A stretch of 64,000 bases of DNA. Origin: Alphaproteobacteria bacterium (GTDB lineage Bacteria > Pseudomonadota > Alphaproteobacteria > Micavibrionales > Micavibrionaceae). Under the pieces are notes generated by a model that was given only the letters and a program-made list of their open reading frames with translations, was not told where the DNA came from and did not search any database. Location of the stretch: contig JAHDXS010000003.1 in the NCBI GenBank assembly GCA_023384135.1, positions 1 through 64,000 of the forward strand, in the 5' to 3' direction. The stretch's first letter is position 1. Every line of letters begins with the position of its first letter. Shown piece after piece: positions 2,509 through 48,272 of this stretch. A program made the position numbers and the translations under genes.

Positions 2509-3339
2509 ATGGCACTTAAAAAATATAATCCCGTAACCCCCAGCCAACGTCAGCTGGTTCAGGTGGACCGTAAGGACCTCTGGAAGGGCGGGCCTGAAAA
2601 AACACTCACCGAGGGCAAGAAAAAGTCCGGCGGACGCAACAACCATGGCCACACGACGACCCGTCACATTGGCGGCGGTCACAAGCAGCGCTACCGCGTT
2701 ATCGACTGGAAGCGCGACAAGTGGGATGTCGAAGGAACCGTTCTGCGTCTGGAATACGATCCGAACCGCACGGCGTTCATCGCCCTGATTGAATACCCCG
2801 ATGGCGAAAAGCGCTACATCATCGCGCCCCAGCGCCTGACCGTTGGCGCGAAGATCATCGCCGGCGAAAAGGTGGACATCAAGCCCGGTAACGCGATGCC
2901 CCTCAAAAACATGCCCGTAGGGACGATCATCCACAACATCGAGATGAAGCCCGGCAAGGGCGCACAGATGGTCCGCTCCGCCGGAACCTTCGCCCAGCTC
3001 GTGGGCCGTGATCAGGGCTACGCCCAGATCCGTCTGGCCTCCGGCGAACTGCGCGTTGTGCGCGGCGAATGCATGGCGACTGTCGGCGCGGTTTCTAACC
3101 CCGATCACATGAACACCAACGATGGTAAGGCAGGACGCACCCGCTGGAAGGGCCGCCGCCCGACCGTTCGCGGCGTGGCTATGAACCCGGTCGATCACCC
3201 GCACGGAGGGGGCGAAGGCCGCACCTCCGGAGGCCGTCACCCGGTCTCCCCGTGGGGCAAACCGACCAAGGGCTACAAGACCCGTAAAAAGGCGAAATGG
3301 ACCAACAAGTCCATCATCCGCCGCCGTAAGAAGAAATAA
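2509..3339 (+). CDS. rplB: 50S ribosomal protein L2
   Basis: L2 has 276 residues, the usual length. The C-terminal motif [20 protein letters not shown] holds the conserved histidine implicated in peptidyl transfer and subunit association. The N-terminal part carries [20 protein letters not shown], the rRNA-binding segment. The ATG follows an AAGGAAGAAG ribosome site. The 70-base gap after rplW is somewhat wider than elsewhere in the cluster. Confidence 0.99.
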
Positions 3340-3365
3340 GATAGAATTTAAGGAGCACGAAAGAC

Positions 3366-3644
3366 ATGTCACGTAGCGTTTGGAAAGGTCCGTTCATCGA
3401 GAGAAGCCTCCTCAAGAAAATTGAGGAAGCCCGCACGAGCGGCAAAAACACGGTGATCAAAACCTGGTCGCGCCGCTCGACGATCCTGCCGAACATGGTC
3501 GGCCTGACGTTCGGTGTGCATAACGGCCGCAAATTCATCCCCGTCCTGGTGACGGATCAGATGATCGGCCATAAACTCGGCGAATTTGCGCCCACCCGTA
3601 CCTACACCGGCCACGGCGCGGACAAGAAAGCCAAAAAGGCTTGA
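3366..3644 (+). CDS. rpsS: 30S ribosomal protein S19
   Basis: A 92-residue S19 with the diagnostic [10 protein letters not shown] start and the [20 protein letters not shown] end. It forms part of the 30S head near the A-site tRNA contact with S13. AAGGAG lies upstream of the ATG at normal spacing. The C-terminus is short and basic, as expected. Confidence 0.99.
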
Positions 3645-3682
3645 TGGACGCGATAGGGTCATAAAGTAAAAGGAAGAAGACA

Positions 3683-4060
3683 ATGGGAAAACCGGCAAAT
3701 CCGAAAAGGATCAAGGAAAACGAGGCGAAGGCGTCCGCGAAATACATCCGTATCAGCCCGCAAAAGCTGAATCTGGTGGCGCAGACCATCCGCGGCAAAA
3801 GCGCTGCAACGGCTCTGATCGACCTTGAGTTCTCTAAAAAGCGCGTTTCTGAAAGCGTGCGCAAGCTGCTCCAGGCCGCTGTCGCCAACGCGGTGAACAA
3901 CCACAATCTGGATGCGGACCGTCTGGTCGTGGCCGAAGCCCACGTCGGCAAGTCCGTGATCATGAAGCGTTTCCGCGCCCGCGCAAAGGGCCGGGGAACC
4001 CGCATCCTGAAACCGATCAGCAACATGACCATCATTCTCAAAGAAGCAGACGAGGCATAA
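3683..4060 (+). CDS. rplV: 50S ribosomal protein L22
   Basis: A 125-residue L22. The hairpin that narrows the exit tunnel is visible near residues 85-108 (HVGKSVIMKRFRARAKGRG), the region where macrolide-resistance changes arise in other species. The N-terminus has about ten extra Lys/Glu residues compared with short L22 forms. The stop is three bases before the rpsC start. Confidence 0.98.
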   Translation: MGKPANPKRIKENEAKASAKYIRISPQKLNLVAQTIRGKSAATALIDLEFSKKRVSESVRKLLQAAVANAVNNHNLDADRLVVAEAHVGKSVIMKRFRARAKGRGTRILKPISNMTIILKEADEA

Positions 4061-4063
4061 TTC

Positions 4064-4744
4064 ATGGGACAGAAAGTTAATCCGATAGGCCTGCGGGTCG
4101 GCATCAACCGCACATGGGACTCCCGCTGGTACGCAGGACGCGACTATGCGGACAAGCTGATCGAAGACCTCAAGCTTCGCGAATACATCCTTGAGCACCT
4201 CAAGCCCGCGGGCGTGAGCAAGGTCATTATTGAACGCGCCGCCAAGCTCACGAAGGTGACCGTCCACACGGCCCGTCCCGGCGTGATCATCGGCAAAAAA
4301 GGCGCTGACATCGAAAAACTGCGCCGCAACCTGTCCCGCCGTGCGGGTGGGGATGTCTCCCTCAACATCGTTGAAATCCGCAAGCCGGAAATCGACTCCC
4401 AGCTGGTCGCCGAAGGTGTGGCGCAGCAGCTCGAACGCCGCGTATCCTTCCGCCGCGCCATGAAGCGCGCCGTTCAGAACGCGCTACGTTTCGGCGCTCT
4501 GGGCATCCGTATTAACGTCTCGGGCCGCCTCGGCGGCGCGGACATCGCCCGTATGGAATGGTACCGCGAGGGCCGCGTGCCCCTGCACACCCTCCGTGCG
4601 GATATCGACTACGGCACGGCCGAGGCGCTGACGACCTACGGGATCATCGGCATCAAGGTCTGGATCTACAAGGGCGACATCATGGATCACGATCCGCTCG
4701 CCCGCGACAAGAGATCCGGGGACAGCAAGGCCGGGGAGATCTAA
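4064..4744 (+). CDS. rpsC: 30S ribosomal protein S3
   Basis: A 226-residue S3, at the mRNA entry channel. It shows the start [21 protein letters not shown], here [13 protein letters not shown], and a type II KH domain with the loop [14 protein letters not shown] near residues 74-87. The C-terminal domain includes [18 protein letters not shown]. Unlike most genomes, where rplP follows directly, 261 bases separate this stop from rplP. Confidence 0.98.
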
Positions 4745-41310: not shown

Positions 41311-41871
41311 ATGGATAGTGGCTTTTGGATGCCGGACGCGCAGGACACAGAGCTGATCAAACGGGCGCAGGCCGGTGACGCCGCTGCGTTCGAGGCGCTG
41401 GTAAACGACTATTACGGGATCATGTTCAAAATGGCCTTTAAATGGTGCGGAGACAGAACGGCGGCGGAGGACATCACGCAGGAGGCGTGCATCAAGCTTG
41501 CGCGCGGGCTCGATTCCTTCCGGCATGATTCCGCCTTCACCTCATGGCTTTACCGCCTCGTGATTAACACGGCGAAAGACTGGTTCAAGTCGCAAAACCG
41601 TCACCCCGGCGCGGGCATTGAGCAGGCCGAGCATGTCGCCGCGCCGGAGGCCTCCCCCGACGACATAATCCTGATGAAACAGGTCTGGGCGCAAATCCAA
41701 ATCCTGCCTGAAGGCGAGAAGGAGGCCCTGATTCTGGTCGTGAGCGAAGGATTGTCGCATAAGGAGGCCGCGCTGATTTTAGAAGTGAAGGAAAGCACCG
41801 TCTCTTGGCGCATCCACGAGGCCCGCAAGAAGCTGGAAAGCCTCTTCGGCAAGGAGAAGAAATATGGATGA
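41311..41871 (+). CDS. ECF-type RNA polymerase sigma factor
   Basis: 186 residues. Region 2: AFEALVNDYYGIMFKMAFKW, DRTAAEDITQEACIKLARGL and AFTSWLYRLVINTAKDWFKS (the -10 recognition part). Region 4: ILPEGEKEALILVVSEGLSH followed by KEAALILEVKESTVSWRIHE (helix-turn-helix for the -35). Starts at 41311 or at an internal ATG 18 bases later. It overlaps the next gene by eight bases, the classic sigma/anti-sigma arrangement. Its stimulus is unknown. Confidence 0.95.
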   Translation: MDSGFWMPDAQDTELIKRAQAGDAAAFEALVNDYYGIMFKMAFKWCGDRTAAEDITQEACIKLARGLDSFRHDSAFTSWLYRLVINTAKDWFKSQNRHPGAGIEQAEHVAAPEASPDDIILMKQVWAQIQILPEGEKEALILVVSEGLSHKEAALILEVKESTVSWRIHEARKKLESLFGKEKKYG

Positions 41872-44248
41872 GTCCGCGCTGAAGAAAATCATGCAGGAGA
41901 TCGAGATCCCGCCCGTTGACGCAAACGCGCAAAAACGCGCGGCAAACCTCGCTTTGGCCGAATTTAAAGCCCACCAGAAGGAAAAATCTGAAAAATCCGC
42001 CCAAGGAACCTCGATCCTCTCCCGTCTTATCGGCAGATCAACGCCTAAGACAGGGAAAAACGACATGAAATTCGGAAAAAAAGGATTTGTATTCGCAGGA
42101 ACCGGAACCGCGCTGGCCGTCGTGCTGGTGGCGGGCTTGGCCATGCAGGGCGGTCAGATGCAGGATGCGGCCAAGCAGACGAGCGGAGGACCACACAATT
42201 TTAGTAATGTAGCACAAAATATAACAACATCAAAATTAAGCCTGCCGGGCATATTCGATGTCTTCGGCGGCGAGAAGGACGCAGCGGACGAAGCCATGCC
42301 TCTGGCCTCCGAAGTCACCGCCCCGCCCGGAACCGCGGAAGCCTCCCCCGCCTACATCGCGGCGGTGGAAGAGAAGAACGAGGAAGCGCTGGAGAAAGCC
42401 CTGCGCACAGGCGACAGCACAATGCCCGTTCCGGTCGAGGCGCCGACGGACCGCCTGCAACTCCCGGAAAAAGCGCCGAGCGCCTTTAAGCTCGATGACG
42501 GCATGGAGGTCGCGCAAAATCGGGCTGACTCCCGCGCCGCCCCCGAACGCGAGGAAGCCAAGCGCAAGGCCCAAGCCCCCGCGCAGGACAAAATGGCGGG
42601 CACAGCCCCCGGCGCGTCTTCGCCCGGTTACGCCGGAGAGGGCGCGGTCTCCTCCAGCGAGGCCACGACGATCTATCCCGAGCCTTACCCTTACCCGCAG
42701 CCGATGCCCATGCCGGTCTCGCCGCCGGTCGATTACTACCCCCAGCCCTATTATCAGGAGCAGGGCCGTGACCGCTTCCCCGAATACAAGCCCAACAGCT
42801 TCAAGGTCGCGCAGGAGGAACCCGTCTCTACCTTCTCCTCCGACGTGGACACCGCAAGCTACAGCTTCGTGCGCCGCGAGTTGAACGCGGGCCGCCTCCC
42901 GCCCGCGCAAGCCGTGCGGATCGAGGAAATGGTGAACTACTTCGATTACAACTATCCGGTCCCCGAATCCCGGGAGGAGCCCTTCCAGCCGACCGTGACC
43001 ATCGTGGACTCCCCGTGGTCGCCGGGCCGCAAGCTGATGCATATCGGCATCAAGGGTTACGAGATCACGGGCGAAAAGCCCAACAGCAACCTTGTGTTCC
43101 TGCTCGATGTCTCCGGCTCGATGAACGCGCAGGACAAGCTGCCGCTGCTGAAAAACTCCTTGAAGCTGCTGCTCGACAGCCTCAAGCCCGACGACACGGT
43201 TTCGATCGTCGTCTATGCGGGCGCGGCCGGAACAGTGCTTCCCCCCACCAAAGTGTCCGAGCGCTCGACGATCTACAGCGCACTGGATAATCTTCAGGCC
43301 GGAGGCTCGACCGCCGGAGGCGCGGGCATCGAACTCGCTTATCAGCTGGCTGAGCAGAACTTTAATAAGGAAGCCGTCAACCGCGTCATCCTCGCCACCG
43401 ACGGCGACTTCAACGTTGGCATCACCAATCGCGAACAACTGAAGGACTATGTGGCCAAGAAACGCGAGACGGGCGTGTTCCTCTCCGTTCTCGGCTTTGG
43501 ACAGGGCAATTATAACGACGACCTCATGCAGGCTCTGGCGCAGAACGGCAACGGCACCGCCGCCTATATCGACAGCTTGAGCGAAGCCCGCAAGGTCCTG
43601 CTCGACGAGGCCAGCTCGACCCTGTTCCCCATCGCCAAGGACGTGAAGTTTCAGATCGAGTTCAACACGGCCCAGATCGCCGAATACCGTCTGGTCGGAT
43701 ACGAAACCCGCCACCTGAATCGTGAGGACTTCAACAACGACAAGGTGGACGCGGGCGATATGGGCGCGGGCCACACCGTAACCGCGATCTACGAGTTCGT
43801 CCCCGTGGGCGCCCAATCCGCCCGCAGCGTGGACGACCTCCGCTACGCGGCCAAACCCGCCGCCGAGGTGCAAGCGCCGATCGCGGAATCGAAGGCCGAC
43901 TCGCCCTTCGCCAACGAATACGCCTTCCTCAAGATCCGCTACAAGCTGCCCAGCGAGGATACGAGCCGCCTGATCACCCGCCCGGTGACGGGACAGGACC
44001 AACTCACCTTGCAAAAGGTTGAATGCGGCCCTGCCGACTCTTGCCCCGCCAGCGCCAGCGACGATACCCGCTTCGCCACCGCCGTGGCCGGGTTCGCCCA
44101 GATCCTTCGCGGCGAGGTGAATATGGTCGAATACAAGCTCGACGATGTGCTCGCCCTCGCGCAGCAAGGCAAGGGCAACGACGAGTTCGGCTACCGTGCG
44201 GAGTTCATCAATCTCGTGCGCCTCGCCAAAGCCTTTGAAAACCGCTAA
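41864..44248 (+). CDS. Membrane-anchored YfbK-type VWA protein, likely anti-sigma
   Basis: 794 residues. The cytoplasmic head of about 70 residues (MDESALKKIMQEIEIPPVDA) is in the position of an anti-sigma domain. One membrane helix lies at about 75-94 (AGTGTALAVVLVAGLAM). A Pro/Ala-rich stalk follows, then the VWA-associated N-domain (about 305-400, FSSDVDTASYSFVRRELNAG), the VWA domain with MIDAS motif LLDVSGSMN at about 413-421 and the ATDGDFNVG loop, and a DUF3520-like C-terminal domain to the end. Overlap with the sigma gene suggests it senses an envelope cue and holds the sigma factor. The anti-sigma role is inferred. Confidence 0.9.
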   Translation: MDESALKKIMQEIEIPPVDANAQKRAANLALAEFKAHQKEKSEKSAQGTSILSRLIGRSTPKTGKNDMKFGKKGFVFAGTGTALAVVLVAGLAMQGGQMQDAAKQTSGGPHNFSNVAQNITTSKLSLPGIFDVFGGEKDAADEAMPLASEVTAPPGTAEASPAYIAAVEEKNEEALEKALRTGDSTMPVPVEAPTDRLQLPEKAPSAFKLDDGMEVAQNRADSRAAPEREEAKRKAQAPAQDKMAGTAPGASSPGYAGEGAVSSSEATTIYPEPYPYPQPMPMPVSPPVDYYPQPYYQEQGRDRFPEYKPNSFKVAQEEPVSTFSSDVDTASYSFVRRELNAGRLPPAQAVRIEEMVNYFDYNYPVPESREEPFQPTVTIVDSPWSPGRKLMHIGIKGYEITGEKPNSNLVFLLDVSGSMNAQDKLPLLKNSLKLLLDSLKPDDTVSIVVYAGAAGTVLPPTKVSERSTIYSALDNLQAGGSTAGGAGIELAYQLAEQNFNKEAVNRVILATDGDFNVGITNREQLKDYVAKKRETGVFLSVLGFGQGNYNDDLMQALAQNGNGTAAYIDSLSEARKVLLDEASSTLFPIAKDVKFQIEFNTAQIAEYRLVGYETRHLNREDFNNDKVDAGDMGAGHTVTAIYEFVPVGAQSARSVDDLRYAAKPAAEVQAPIAESKADSPFANEYAFLKIRYKLPSEDTSRLITRPVTGQDQLTLQKVECGPADSCPASASDDTRFATAVAGFAQILRGEVNMVEYKLDDVLALAQQGKGNDEFGYRAEFINLVRLAKAFENR

Positions 44249-44277: not shown

Positions 44278-44316
44278 ATCCGGCCCCATTCGCAAAAGCA
44301 GGGGGCCGGATTTTTT
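44278..44316 (+). terminator. Rho-independent terminator of the sigma/VWA operon
   Basis: ATCCGGCCCC (44278-44287) pairs perfectly with GGGGCCGGAT (44302-44311), then TTTTTT to 44316. It separates the sigma/VWA unit from the precursor gene that follows, so the latter should have its own promoter. Confidence 0.9.
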
Positions 44317-44329
44317 GTTCCCTGTTCAT

Positions 44330-44355
44330 GTAACGGCAAACCGCCTAGGATCGAA
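44330..44355 (+). promoter_or_regulatory. Candidate ECF-sigma promoter of the RiPP locus
   Basis: GTAACG (44330-44335), exactly 16 bases, then CGAA (44352-44355), about 60 bases before the precursor ATG. This has the layout of ECF promoters such as those I recall for Caulobacter SigF (GTAACC-N16-CGAA), which control bufferin-type loci. The same pattern was not found in front of the sigma gene at 41311, so which sigma factor reads it is unknown. Confidence 0.55.
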
Positions 44356-44416
44356 CAGAATGAAAATTGATCGTTCAATTTTTATTTTAGACGTTTTTCA
44401 TATAAGGAACAGACTG

Positions 44417-44776
44417 ATGACTGACTCTGCAAAAAAATCAAAAGTGAATAAAAGACTCGCGACCGTCGCCCTCGCCGGGATGATGGCTGTCGGCACCTTC
44501 TCCGCCTCCCCGGCTTACGCGGGCAGCGGCTCCAACGGCTGCAGCGCAAGCGGCTGCGGCGCAAAAACCACGGGCGGCAATGCGTGCAAATCCGGCTGCA
44601 AGAACGCCGACAAACCCACGGACGGCAATAAGTGCTCCACCAAGTCCAGCTGTCAGGCGAAATCCACCTGTCAGGCCGCCGCGCCTGCGGAAAAGGCGAG
44701 CTGTCAAGCCAAAGCCGCTTGTGAAAACAAAGCCAAGTGCAGCGGCCACAACGACGACAGCCGTTACAACGATTAA
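44417..44776 (+). CDS. Cys-rich bufferin-like RiPP precursor
   Basis: 119 residues from ATG 44417, with AAGGA eight bases upstream; upstream in-frame codons lack support. Residues 1-35 form a signal peptide (LATVALAGMMAVGTFSASPA, cleavage after AYA). The mature part has ten Cys: 42, 47, 57, 61, then two triplets 73/79/85 and 96/102/108 with exact CX5CX5C spacing, in a Lys/Ala/Ser/Gly-rich background. Twelve bases follow before an MNIO enzyme gene. Exported, Cys-rich, MNIO-modified precursors (bufferins) are reported to bind copper; here a metallophore role is inferred. The sequence is not the DUF2282 type as far as I can see. Confidence 0.85.
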   Translation: MTDSAKKSKVNKRLATVALAGMMAVGTFSASPAYAGSGSNGCSASGCGAKTTGGNACKSGCKNADKPTDGNKCSTKSSCQAKSTCQAAAPAEKASCQAKAACENKAKCSGHNDDSRYND

Positions 44777-44787
44777 GTTGTAACGCG

Positions 44788-46449
44788 ATGCAGGACAACG
44801 CTCCGCATTTTAAACGAATCGGTTTTGGGATGGGCCTGCGCCCGTCCCATTATCCTTTTATTTTCGAGAACAAACCCGCGCTCGACTGGTTCGAGATCAT
44901 CTCGGAAAACTTCATGGATACCGGGGGCCGCCCGGTGCGGATGCTCGAAAAAATCCTCGAAGATTATCCCGTGGTGATGCACGGCGTCTCGCTCTCCATC
45001 GGCACGGTCGATCCGCTCAATTCCGAATATCTGCAAAAACTGAAAAATCTGGCAAGCTGGGTCAACCCGCCATGGATCTCCGACCATCTTTGCTGGACGG
45101 GCGTAGCGCATAAAAACACGCACGATCTTCTGCCTGTGCCGTACACGGAAGAGGCGCTGAAAAATATCGTCTCCCGCATCAAACAGGTGCAGGATGTTCT
45201 GGGCCGCCCCATCGTGCTCGAAAACCCCTCCACCTATCTGGAATTCACAAGCTCGACCATGAGCGAGTGGGAATTCATCGCCCGCATGGCCGAGGAGTCC
45301 GGCTGCGGACTTTTGCTCGACGTGAACAATGTTTATGTGTCCTGCTACAACCACCGCTGGGACCCCAAAACCTATATCGACGCGCTGCCCCTTCATCGCG
45401 TCGCGCAAATTCACCTCGCGGGCCACACGAACAAGGGCACACATATCATCGACACGCACGACGACCACGTGATCGACGAAGTCTGGGCGCTCTACCGGTA
45501 TGTGATCGCCAAGGCCGGACCGATCAGCACGATGGTGGAATGGGACGATAAAATCCCCGAATTTCCCGTGGTGATGGAGGAGGTGGCCAAGGCCCGCAAA
45601 TGGGCCGCCGCCTCCGAAGGCCCCGTGCCGCTCCCTTCTTTTCAATCCTTCCGGCATAATATCCGCCCGTCCGAACGCCTGACGCCTCTGTCCGAGGAGA
45701 TGGACGACATGCAGACCGCGATTCTGCAAGGAAACGGGGAGGTCATGAACCCCGACGAACGCATCGTGCCCAAGCCCGACTTTTCGCCGCAGGAGCAGAT
45801 TGAATCTTATATCAACGGATACCGTTATCGCCTGTTCGACATCGTGGCGATGGATTATCCCGCGCTGAAATCCGCGCTGGGCCGGGAGAAGTTCAACGCG
45901 CTGATCGACGCCTATGTCGAGGCCACGCCCTCCACCCATTTCAACGTCGCGCGCTACACCGCCTGCTTCCCCGATTTCGTAAGGGAGCGGGAGGAGCCGT
46001 TCGCCTATGAACTCTCCATCCTCGAAACCGAGCTGGTGCAGATCGCGGACAAACCGGAAACGCTCGCCCTAAGCCCCGAAGACCTTGCGGCGCTCGACCC
46101 CGAAAAATTCATGGAATTTAAATTGGCCCCGCGCAAGGCGCTCAAGCTCTTCGCCTTTTCCTACCCGGTGAACGAATATTACGTGGCGTTTTTAAACGGC
46201 GAAAACCCGGCGCGGGTCGAAAAACGCCCCAGCTTTCTGGCCATCTACCGCCATAACGACCAGCTCTGGCGCCTCGATCTGGAGGAACGCGAATATATCG
46301 TGCTCTCGGCCCTGTTCGCGGGCGTCCCGGTGGGGCAGGCGCTGGGCGCGGCCATCCCCGAGGACGACGACGGCGAAGCCTTCATGGGCAGCGTCCGCCA
46401 CTGGTTCGGCAAATGGATGAATAACGGGCTGCTCGCGAAAGCGGCTTAG
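44788..46449 (+). CDS. MNIO (DUF692) enzyme fused to a DUF2063 domain
   Basis: 553 residues from ATG 44788. Residues about 10-280 are an MNIO/DUF692 TIM barrel with likely iron ligands His65 (VMHGVSLS), His100 (ISDHLCW), Glu145 (VLENPSTY), Asp178 (LLDVNNVYVS), His209/His213 (IHLAGH), Asp/His at 225-227 and Glu251 (MVEWDD). Residues about 300-553 match DUF2063 (BufC-like partner), with ESYINGYRYRLFDIVAMDYP. These two are usually separate genes, bufB and bufC. The enzyme should modify Cys of the precursor encoded 12 bases upstream. There is no clear ribosome site, so translation is probably coupled. Confidence 0.92.
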   Translation: MQDNAPHFKRIGFGMGLRPSHYPFIFENKPALDWFEIISENFMDTGGRPVRMLEKILEDYPVVMHGVSLSIGTVDPLNSEYLQKLKNLASWVNPPWISDHLCWTGVAHKNTHDLLPVPYTEEALKNIVSRIKQVQDVLGRPIVLENPSTYLEFTSSTMSEWEFIARMAEESGCGLLLDVNNVYVSCYNHRWDPKTYIDALPLHRVAQIHLAGHTNKGTHIIDTHDDHVIDEVWALYRYVIAKAGPISTMVEWDDKIPEFPVVMEEVAKARKWAAASEGPVPLPSFQSFRHNIRPSERLTPLSEEMDDMQTAILQGNGEVMNPDERIVPKPDFSPQEQIESYINGYRYRLFDIVAMDYPALKSALGREKFNALIDAYVEATPSTHFNVARYTACFPDFVREREEPFAYELSILETELVQIADKPETLALSPEDLAALDPEKFMEFKLAPRKALKLFAFSYPVNEYYVAFLNGENPARVEKRPSFLAIYRHNDQLWRLDLEEREYIVLSALFAGVPVGQALGAAIPEDDDGEAFMGSVRHWFGKWMNNGLLAKAA

Positions 46450-46961
46450 TTTGAATCAGACAAACCTAAAGCCTTAGCGACGACAAACTTCATGCCATAA
46501 CCTGTGCATAGGCTTGCACGATAATCGTCTTCGCAATCGCCTAATCCTATATGATTGAGCAGCTTAACAAACTGGTTGTATTCAAAGTTATAATCGCCTG
46601 ATTCAAAAATTTTTAGCAAACCTTTGCGAATATGATGTTTTTGAGTTTCTGATAATACCGCCGCCTTTAAGCGGGCGGCCATACGCGCACGAATATAGCC
46701 AGAGTAACAGAACATCACCGGGGTAATAACAAAATCTATGCAAATGGAAATTGCGGCTGCGTCATTCTCTTTTATACGATCAGAAAGCCTATTGAGAGTA
46801 TCAATATGTTGTCTGAACCGCAGACCTTGATCTTCAGGAAAACTAAGGGGACTCTGAACTTTGTAAGTTTTAGCTAACCGAAGATAGTTTTCTACAAGTG
46901 CGGCGTGTTGCCAACATGCAGGGGGATTATAATAATTTTCGCGTTTTTGTTCTTGTGACAA
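46446..46961 (-). CDS. Hypothetical protein, AT-rich gene
   Basis: 171 residues, no signal peptide. Mostly helical with several Cys (PPACWQH, SICIDF, MFCYSGY, GDCEDD, SLCTGYG). Its DNA is clearly richer in A+T than the MNIO gene whose end it overlaps by four bases on the opposite strand, suggesting a different origin. The family is not recognised. No strong ribosome site was seen. Confidence 0.6.
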   Translation of the reverse strand: MSQEQKRENYYNPPACWQHAALVENYLRLAKTYKVQSPLSFPEDQGLRFRQHIDTLNRLSDRIKENDAAAISICIDFVITPVMFCYSGYIRARMAARLKAAVLSETQKHHIRKGLLKIFESGDYNFEYNQFVKLLNHIGLGDCEDDYRASLCTGYGMKFVVAKALGLSDSN

Positions 46962-47031: not shown

Positions 47032-47427
47032 TTAATCTAAATCACTTTTTTGCTGAACAAAACCATCAGCTCGATTCCAGATCGGAGTGTTTTCTCTCCC
47101 GTAAGTCACGGTATTAACATGATGCGGAACAACATACGTATATTCAAATCTTCCAGATAAACCTGCACGCGCAGGGACCAAATTAATCAGTATTTGTGTT
47201 GTATCCCCGTTTTCCGTCGAGCTGATATTCCCAACCGCCAGTGAGCTATGAAGCGCTAGGCCGGACAACTGAATAGTAGCGGGAGACTGGCCCGTTTGCA
47301 CCGCACTGTAAAACTGAGTGTCCTTTAATTCCAATATCGTTTTGCCAGTCGAACAAGCCGTAACAAAAGGGCACGCTAAAACAACGATGAAAACCAATCG
47401 AAGAGTAGTTGGGATATTGCGGATCAT
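47032..47427 (-). CDS. Small putative lipoprotein
   Basis: 131 residues from ATG 47427, which overlaps the MTA phosphorylase stop as ATGA, so it is probably coupled to that gene. The signal sequence ends in a lipobox, FVTACS, with the lipidated Cys at about residue 25. The mature part is beta-rich (TIQLSGLALHSSLAVGNISS; GRFEYTYVVPHHVN). AT-rich compared with mtnP. No family recognised. Confidence 0.7.
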   Translation of the reverse strand: MIRNIPTTLRLVFIVVLACPFVTACSTGKTILELKDTQFYSAVQTGQSPATIQLSGLALHSSLAVGNISSTENGDTTQILINLVPARAGLSGRFEYTYVVPHHVNTVTYGRENTPIWNRADGFVQQKSDLD

Positions 47428-48272
47428 AACCGCAAAACCCCCAACCACTCCTTCTGCTCCGCGTTGAGCCGCTCATCCGGCGTCATGACCGCGCCCTTGA
47501 GCGCCGTGCGGATTTTCTCCGGCGTTTCGCTGATCCCGTTCTGCAAAATCTGCACGACCAGCTTTTTGATTTTCTCGATATTCTCGAAATAAACCTTGAA
47601 AACCGCCTCGACGCTCACATGCTCGTCCGGGTCCTCGCGCCAGCAATCGTAATCGGTGGCGATCGCCAGCGTCACGTAGCCCATCTGCGCCTCACGCGCG
47701 AGGAACGCCTCGGGCACGTTGGTCATGCCCACAACGTCGCACCCCGCCGCCCCGCGCAGGAAATGACTTTCCACCTTCGAGCCCAATCGCGGCCCCTCTA
47801 CGCACGCATACGCCTTGCCGGAGTGAAGCGCGATCCCGATATCCTTCGCGGCCTTCAGAACGTCCTGCGTCAAAACCGGGCAGGCCGGTTCCGCCGTCGA
47901 GATATGCGCCGTCACGCCCTTGCCGAAAAAGCTGGCCTCGCGCTTGCCGCGCGTATGGTCGAAATACTGATCCACCAGCACGAGGTCGCCCGGCGCGATC
48001 TCCTCCTTGAGGGAACCCGACGCCGAAACGCTCAAAATCGTCCGCGCCCCCAGCTTTTTGAGCGCATAGAGATTCGCCCGGTAATTCACCTCGGAGGGCA
48101 AAAACTCGTGATTCCGCCCGTGCCGGGGCAGGAACAGCGCCGTGCTGGCCCCGACCTTGCCCTCGGTGATGGGCGCGGAGGGCTTGCCGAACGGCGTAGA
48201 GACGTCGTGTTCCTTGACCAGTTCCAGTTCCTTGAGCGCATAAAGGCCGCTGCCGCCGATGATACCGAGCAT
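47424..48272 (-). CDS. mtnP: S-methyl-5'-thioadenosine phosphorylase
   Basis: 282 residues. Splits 5'-methylthioadenosine, a by-product of polyamine and other SAM-dependent reactions, into adenine and methylthioribose-1-phosphate. MLGIIGGSGLYAL start, FLPRHGRNHEFLPSEVNYRA, TILSVSASGSLKEEIAPGDL and VVGMTNVPEAFLAREAQMGY are family motifs. The usual spermidine by-product MTA is not formed by the carboxyspermidine route seen downstream, so its source is another pathway. Confidence 0.95.
   Translation of the reverse strand: MLGIIGGSGLYALKELELVKEHDVSTPFGKPSAPITEGKVGASTALFLPRHGRNHEFLPSEVNYRANLYALKKLGARTILSVSASGSLKEEIAPGDLVLVDQYFDHTRGKREASFFGKGVTAHISTAEPACPVLTQDVLKAAKDIGIALHSGKAYACVEGPRLGSKVESHFLRGAAGCDVVGMTNVPEAFLAREAQMGYVTLAIATDYDCWREDPDEHVSVEAVFKVYFENIEKIKKLVVQILQNGISETPEKIRTALKGAVMTPDERLNAEQKEWLGVLRL

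Follow-up and report, generated by a model that had tools for sequence, protein, structure and literature searches.

The BufB-type iron oxidase that matures copper-binding bufferins and its peptide-binding partner are normally made as separate proteins. The window analysed here, a stretch of 64,000 nucleotides from an Alphaproteobacteria bacterium of the Micavibrionaceae (GenBank assembly GCA_023384135.1, contig JAHDXS010000003.1, positions 1 to 64,000 of the forward strand), carries on its plus strand a gene for a cysteine-rich precursor followed by a single gene in which the two proteins are joined: a multinuclear non-heme iron-dependent oxidative enzyme (MNIO) and its DUF2063 partner. We read this pair as an operon of two genes for a ribosomally synthesised and post-translationally modified peptide (RiPP), with a natural single-chain BufB-BufC maturase making a periplasmic metal-binding peptide, and put the probability of this reading at about 0.72. 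Among 216 DUF2063 proteins, a 2009 paper recorded one with the DUF692-DUF2063 architecture and did not comment on it further (PMC2954202). On the engineered side, a preprint of July 2026 reported that a linker-free artificial HvfB-HvfC fusion was more active than the co-expressed pair (PMC13419390); the same preprint cites MovX, with a C-terminal RiPP recognition element (RRE) fused to the MNIO, and ChrH as enzymes that depart from the rule of a separate partner. A 2025 survey of MNIO clusters, where its main text deals with fusions, supplements aside, does not mention the natural fusion (PMC12452194). The latter is known as a string of domains; as a clade with precursors of its own it is not described in the literature searched.

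The enzyme gene (44788..46449, plus strand; ATG at 44788, stop at 46447-46449) encodes 553 residues, and its reading as an MNIO-DUF2063 fusion, put forward in the first-pass annotation of this DNA, is borne out by profile searches. The MNIO (BufB) domain, a predicted TIM barrel at residues 13-272 (44824..45603), matches PF05114 (MbnB_TglH_ChrH) with 370.6 bits against a cut-off of 25 bits. A linker that is poorly conserved in the alignments (residues 273-300, 45604..45687) leads to a helical DUF2063 domain (residues 301-419, 45688..46044), delimited from the helices of the model and from a match to PF09836 of 51 bits at residues 307-398 (cut-off 27.2 bits), and an RRE-like domain of three strands and three helices, assigned from the secondary structure of the model, follows in the same chain (residues 452-548, 46141..46431). 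The annotation had proposed a search of the fusion against MNIO collections; on the NCBIfam BufB maturase model NF050167 it scores 381.2 bits over residues 13-270, exceeding the curated cut-off of 310, and 254 bits on the HvfB model, under the cut-off of 360. On the HvfC model NF050145 it reaches 27.2 bits (cut-off 142 bits), but this model misses bufferin partners, since the separate BufC-type protein of the same genome also fails it (44.9 bits). As in PME type 1 partners, DUF2063 is present and is followed by a predicted RRE-type domain; in place of the separate protein of about 250-260 residues typical of that type there is one polypeptide with no internal stop in all 28 fusions examined (27 further loci, described below, and the window).

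An AlphaFold2 model of the fusion, built from a 28-row alignment, has a mean predicted local distance difference test score (pLDDT) of 87.1 and a predicted template modelling score of 0.82, and comprises a barrel (residues 13-270), a set of helices (301-419) and a three-strand, three-helix domain (452-548). The barrel matches TglH (8hi7_B, Z 26.5), the HvfB-like structure 3bww (Z 25.8) and MbnB (7dz9_A, Z 25.1), and residues 338-553 match the HvfC-type partner NGO1945 (3dee, Z 15.3 over 194 residues). A Foldseek search of the model also matched the TglI chain, and six relatives of the fusion match the NGO1945_C model. Sugar epimerases and endonuclease IV, found in lower rows of the fold search, are unrelated proteins with only the common TIM barrel and were discarded. 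The residues N175, D242 and H244, essential in HvfB (PMC13419390), map by alignment with 3bww to N180/N181, D222 and H224 of the fusion, which are invariant across 28/28 members.

The fusion is old and widespread, not a local oddity. An order-level search found a full-length relative in 9 of 142 genomes (a tenth is truncated by the end of a contig), a sample of the class added four further families at 57-59% identity, and the C-terminal half, when 84,980 species genomes were scanned for it, returned 27 loci, all of them full-length fusions of 541-576 residues. The carriers are alphaproteobacterial metagenome-assembled genomes, some labelled Rickettsiales, Methylophilus, including cultured members such as M. 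methylotrophus DSM 46235 (L112), and other Methylophilaceae of the Betaproteobacteria. Every one of the 28 proteins matches PF05114 and PF09836 as well as the BufB model NF050167, and the existence of 28 full-length fusions rules out an assembly artefact or read-through. Directly upstream of the fusion, a cysteine-rich open reading frame (ORF) with a signal-like start is found in 25 of the 27 loci and in the window; the gene order is that of bufferin clusters, namely precursor, MNIO and partner, the last as a C-terminal half. The first-pass annotation had held that its interpretation would fall if the two genes were not co-conserved across related genomes, and the fusion passes this check. In one locus (L091), two tandem precursors (3315-3680 and 3836-4213, with 8 and 12 Cys) stand ahead of a single fusion enzyme.

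In a tree of the MNIO half, the 28 fusions form one clade (support 97/92), sister to the unfused enzymes L071-L073 and L087. In a quick tree of the partner half the fusions again form a single clade (SH-aLRT 96), whose sister is made up of the separate partners from this unfused lineage; L087 sits there on a long branch and its placement is unsure. Both half-trees agree on the fusion clade and on its unfused sister, and their simplest reading would be that the fusion arose once, by the joining of adjacent bufB and bufC. Methylophilus nests within the alphaproteobacterial fusion clade, a position that suggests transfer of the fusion gene. In two other genomes, bufB and bufC share a reading frame and are parted only by a TAA stop plus 0-3 bases (G528, L118:2337-2338; G785, L122:2328-2332), L118 having zero bases from the bufB TAA stop to the next ATG; both pairs are preceded by duplicated BufA2 precursors with 12-13 Cys. 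This arrangement is possibly a step before fusion, showing how one could start.

The precursor gene (44417..44776, plus strand; ATG at 44417, stop at 44774-44776) encodes the 119 residues, ten cysteines and signal-like start that the first-pass annotation had described, and a gap of 11 bases separates it from the fusion gene; the locus start proposed there, 44317, falls upstream of the gene, whose conserved start at 44417 (MTDSAKKSKVNKK...) is common to the relatives in the genus. The AAGGA at 44404..44408 (plus strand) is its likely ribosome-binding site. A basic start and a hydrophobic stretch (LATVALAGMMAVGTFSASPAYA, followed by G) with an ALAG-type motif make up a putative Sec signal peptide (residues 1-35, 44417..44521) with AYA at the expected cleavage site. 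All ten Cys fall within the core from C42 to C108 (44540..44740), which holds four Cx5C gaps, matched in 42 of 20,000 shuffles, and is modelled as unstructured at a pLDDT of 41.8, the precursor model being uninformative. Comparison with a genus relative (L092) gives 0.16 nonsynonymous (dN) and 1.02 synonymous (dS) substitutions per site, a dN/dS of about 0.16, and keeps 10/10 Cys, which marks the precursor as a real gene under purifying selection. A conserved C-terminal tail, HNDxxRYND or GDWxNLND, ends the precursors of the window's subclade (44741-44773 in the window).

In the window precursor, DUF2282 (PF10048), the mark of BufA1, is absent, the BufA2 model NF050166 (cut-off 60 bits) gives no match, and no EGKCG repeat of the oxazolin/Buf_EGKCG type can be read. 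On this BufA2 model, three precursors of the fusion clade reach 49.8, 30.0 and 21.8 bits, against 86-90 for control BufA2 proteins; only the first two values argue for kinship with BufA2, because the BufA1 precursor of the window's own genome reaches 22.3 bits there. Ordinary BufA2 precursors have a fixed Cys spacing of 5-5-6-5-13, the fusion-clade precursors L098 and L104 one of 5-5-6-5-5, and the 29 fusion-associated precursors together hold 92 gaps of 5 residues and 36 of 10. From such sequence comparisons the fusion precursors are best read as divergent BufA2 relatives, the window member being past detection and matching no curated family. The fusion-associated precursor of G032 (L009:1173-1421) has a lipobox-like LTGC and may be a membrane-anchored lipoprotein. 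Two far larger proteins with BufA2-like Cys motifs (CRGSNLCKGMSGCG, CRGTNACSGQGGCG) are encoded directly 5' of an MNIO, one of 685 residues (L079:1848-3902) with a ferritin-like domain (PF12902, 84.5 bits) and one of 477 residues (L070:38-1468); both are possible MNIO substrates of unusual size.

The signal peptides of these precursors share a feature of their own. The motif [AVT]A[LFI][AL]G[LMVIAF], picked after the sequences had been inspected, lies in the hydrophobic core of 25 of the 29 fusion-associated precursors and of all three precursors that go with the unfused sister enzymes, although these three have BufA1-type Cys cores; among the precursors that belong to ordinary BufB enzymes it occurs in none of 46 (0/33 other BufA1 and 0/13 BufA2). 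It tracks the enzyme clade, not the type of precursor core. This is suggestive, not proof, of a motif-bearing signal peptide that serves as the leader read by the partner half of the enzyme. A Sec signal peptide acts as leader in oxazolin biosynthesis, where HvfA that lacks the signal peptide undergoes hardly any modification (PMC13419390).

The window's genome holds exactly two MNIO genes and two DUF2063 domains over cut-off. Besides the fusion there is a standard bufferin-1 operon, bufA1-bufB-bufC, on contig 5 at about 172-174 kb, with a DUF2282 precursor (78.7 bits), a BufB of 292 residues (367.8 bits) that shares 41% identity with the fusion's MNIO half, and a separate DUF2063 partner of 264 residues (65.4 bits). 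A search of the genome for further, unlinked precursors of the window family found none. Leaders that differ between the two systems would fit a separation of the two pathways of this genome.

Established here are the architecture with its predicted fold, catalytic residues that are conserved, a precursor gene that almost always accompanies the enzyme, one clade of fusions and a leader motif that goes with this clade; they leave the genomic part of the first-pass interpretation well supported and that interpretation, taken as a whole, partly supported. The product is most likely a divergent, BufA2-like periplasmic thiooxazole metallophore. The precursor would be synthesised with its Sec signal peptide, which the DUF2063/RRE half would bind as a leader. 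The same half would also hold the MNIO iron cluster in its active mixed-valent state, a state that HvfC enables in HvfB, whose catalysis needs HvfC (PMC13419390). The MNIO half may then oxidise Cys residues in the core; the likeliest product is 5-thiooxazole, which the PME1-dependent MNIOs tested so far are argued to make, and 5-thiooxazole metallophores with Cys converted in this way are termed captophorins (PMC13097082). The modified peptide would leave via Sec, shed its signal and bind metal, most probably copper, in the periplasm. Fusion would hold the subunits in a 1:1 ratio and next to one another; this is important since HvfB and HvfC, as separate proteins, associate only weakly. A bolder extension, which we put forward tentatively and hold to be well short of even odds, is that the fusions make up a distinct, insulated branch of thiooxazole peptides, with one-protein maturases, a clade-specific Sec leader, no cross-talk with bufferin-1 and many modified Cys in hexad-spaced arrays (up to 12 Cys), possibly with another metal or stoichiometry.

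Several observations weigh against the proposed metal-binding RiPP operon. The window precursor has no meaningful match in Pfam or NCBIfam, no precursor lies upstream of the fusion at L095 and L102, and that of L100 has only three Cys. The predicted model of the fusion represents one chain only, and the precursors over which the leader motif was counted are mutually related, so that, with a motif chosen after inspection, the small P values overstate independence. The nature of the product leaves the most room for another reading. MNIO enzymes are chemically diverse (PMC12452194, PMC13174530), the window precursor has its ten Cys in hexad-like spacing, which sets it apart from BufA1, BufA2 and EGKCG precursors, and the ordinary bufferin-1 operon already in the genome would make another system of identical function superfluous; the fusion might modify its precursor to something other than a copper thiooxazole metallophore, through a different Cys modification or for a role in gold, mercury or oxidative stress. 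We consider this rather unlikely given an MNIO half above the BufB cut-off, relatives of the window precursor that score on the BufA2 model, and the case made for 5-thiooxazole in PME1-dependent enzymes (PMC13097082).

That the peptide is an unmodified, metallothionein-like periplasmic thiol, with the fusion acting elsewhere, for example on the BufA1 of the second operon, is a good deal less probable still. Unmodified Cys-rich peptides are able to bind metal, and at two fusion loci no precursor adjoins the enzyme, but adjacency elsewhere extends over a wide phylogenetic range, the second operon owns a BufB and a BufC and has a precursor whose signal-peptide motif differs, and only one precursor of the family exists in the genome. 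In Pfam, DUF2063 is still labelled as putatively DNA-binding, which was also the first interpretation given to NGO1945 (PMC2954202), so that the DUF2063 half could in principle be a regulator linking the oxidase to transcription. This we find scarcely credible: the 2025 survey now places NGO1945 among the typical RRE-bearing partners of MNIOs (PMC12452194), and HvfB depends on HvfC for catalysis (PMC13419390). A defence system was also considered and rejected, PADLOC giving no match. The reading as a bufferin-type operon with a single-chain maturase is the one we retain.

Upstream of this unit, a hairpin resembling a rho-independent terminator (44278..44317, plus strand; fold -22.8 kcal/mol, z -3.6, then TTTTTT) separates the precursor-enzyme pair from a VWA gene; its loop is longer than the terminator scan accepts and it was found by RNA folding. 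A sigma-70 promoter scan gave nothing exceeding chance. The region 41311-44248 encodes an extracytoplasmic function (ECF) sigma factor and then a YfbK-type VWA protein, 5' of the unit. These neighbours were set aside as parts of the system: as an upstream pair they are confined to the genus and to L053 (L116, which is the same locus, shows part of them), are absent at other loci and are cut off by the terminator-like hairpin. Downstream, two ORFs on the minus strand (46449-46961 and 47035-47448) have no Pfam match. At other fusion loci, DoxX adjoins the enzyme (L057, L083/L098, L085/L103, L097, L101) or an ECF sigma factor occurs with NrsF (L097, L099, L106, L107). All three are typical of bufferin and oxazolin clusters, the sigma/NrsF pair being reported for Buf1 and not Buf2 clusters, according to the 2025 survey (PMC12452194). 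The window locus itself has neither DoxX nor the ECF sigma and NrsF set.

Work on MNIO enzymes can be difficult, as binding between enzyme and partner may be weak. The group working on HvfB built an artificial fusion to circumvent this, and many genomes hold a natural single-chain version. Its occurrence in cultured Methylophilus species, with the substrate gene adjoining, offers a simple system for work on the iron cofactor and on structure, and the natural fusion provides a test of the Sec signal peptide as a RiPP leader. The genome studied here encodes two bufferin-type pathways that would run in parallel within one cell.

Foremost among the known systems to which this locus can be compared is bufferin-2 (BufA2-BufB-BufC; NF050166, NF050167), with which it shares a Cys precursor bearing a signal peptide, a BufB-type MNIO, a DUF2063/RRE partner and the order of the genes; the first four Cys gaps, 5-5-6-5, are common to BufA2 and the precursors L098 and L104. 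It differs in that BufB and BufC are one protein, that the fusion precursors tested fall under the BufA2 cut-off and that the signal-peptide motif is another; moreover, the ECF sigma factor and NrsF at some fusion loci are, in the survey, a feature of Buf1 and not of Buf2 (PMC12452194). Bufferin-1 (BufA1, DUF2282) has the same enzyme parts, and the nearest unfused enzymes (L072, L073 and L087) combine BufA1-type precursors with the signal motif of the fusions, whereas bufferin-1 itself has separate BufB and BufC and a four-Cys DUF2282 core. The engineered HvfB-HvfC fusion (PMC13419390) also places the MNIO ahead of the partner, but is artificial and without a linker, and the EGKCG repeats of HvfA are absent from the window precursor. 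MovX and ChrH, as cited in that preprint, are natural MNIOs in which an extra domain replaces a separate partner; here an entire PME type 1 partner (DUF2063 and RRE) is fused. As regards the CxxxxC precursor family of the survey (PMC12452194), the dominant gap in the fusion precursors is Cx5C and not Cx4C. The MbnB-MbnC and TglH-TglI heterodimers share the folds of the enzyme half, and the TglI chain too finds its counterpart in the fusion, but each consists of two proteins and, by general knowledge and the same survey (PMC12452194), acts on substrates without Sec signal peptides.
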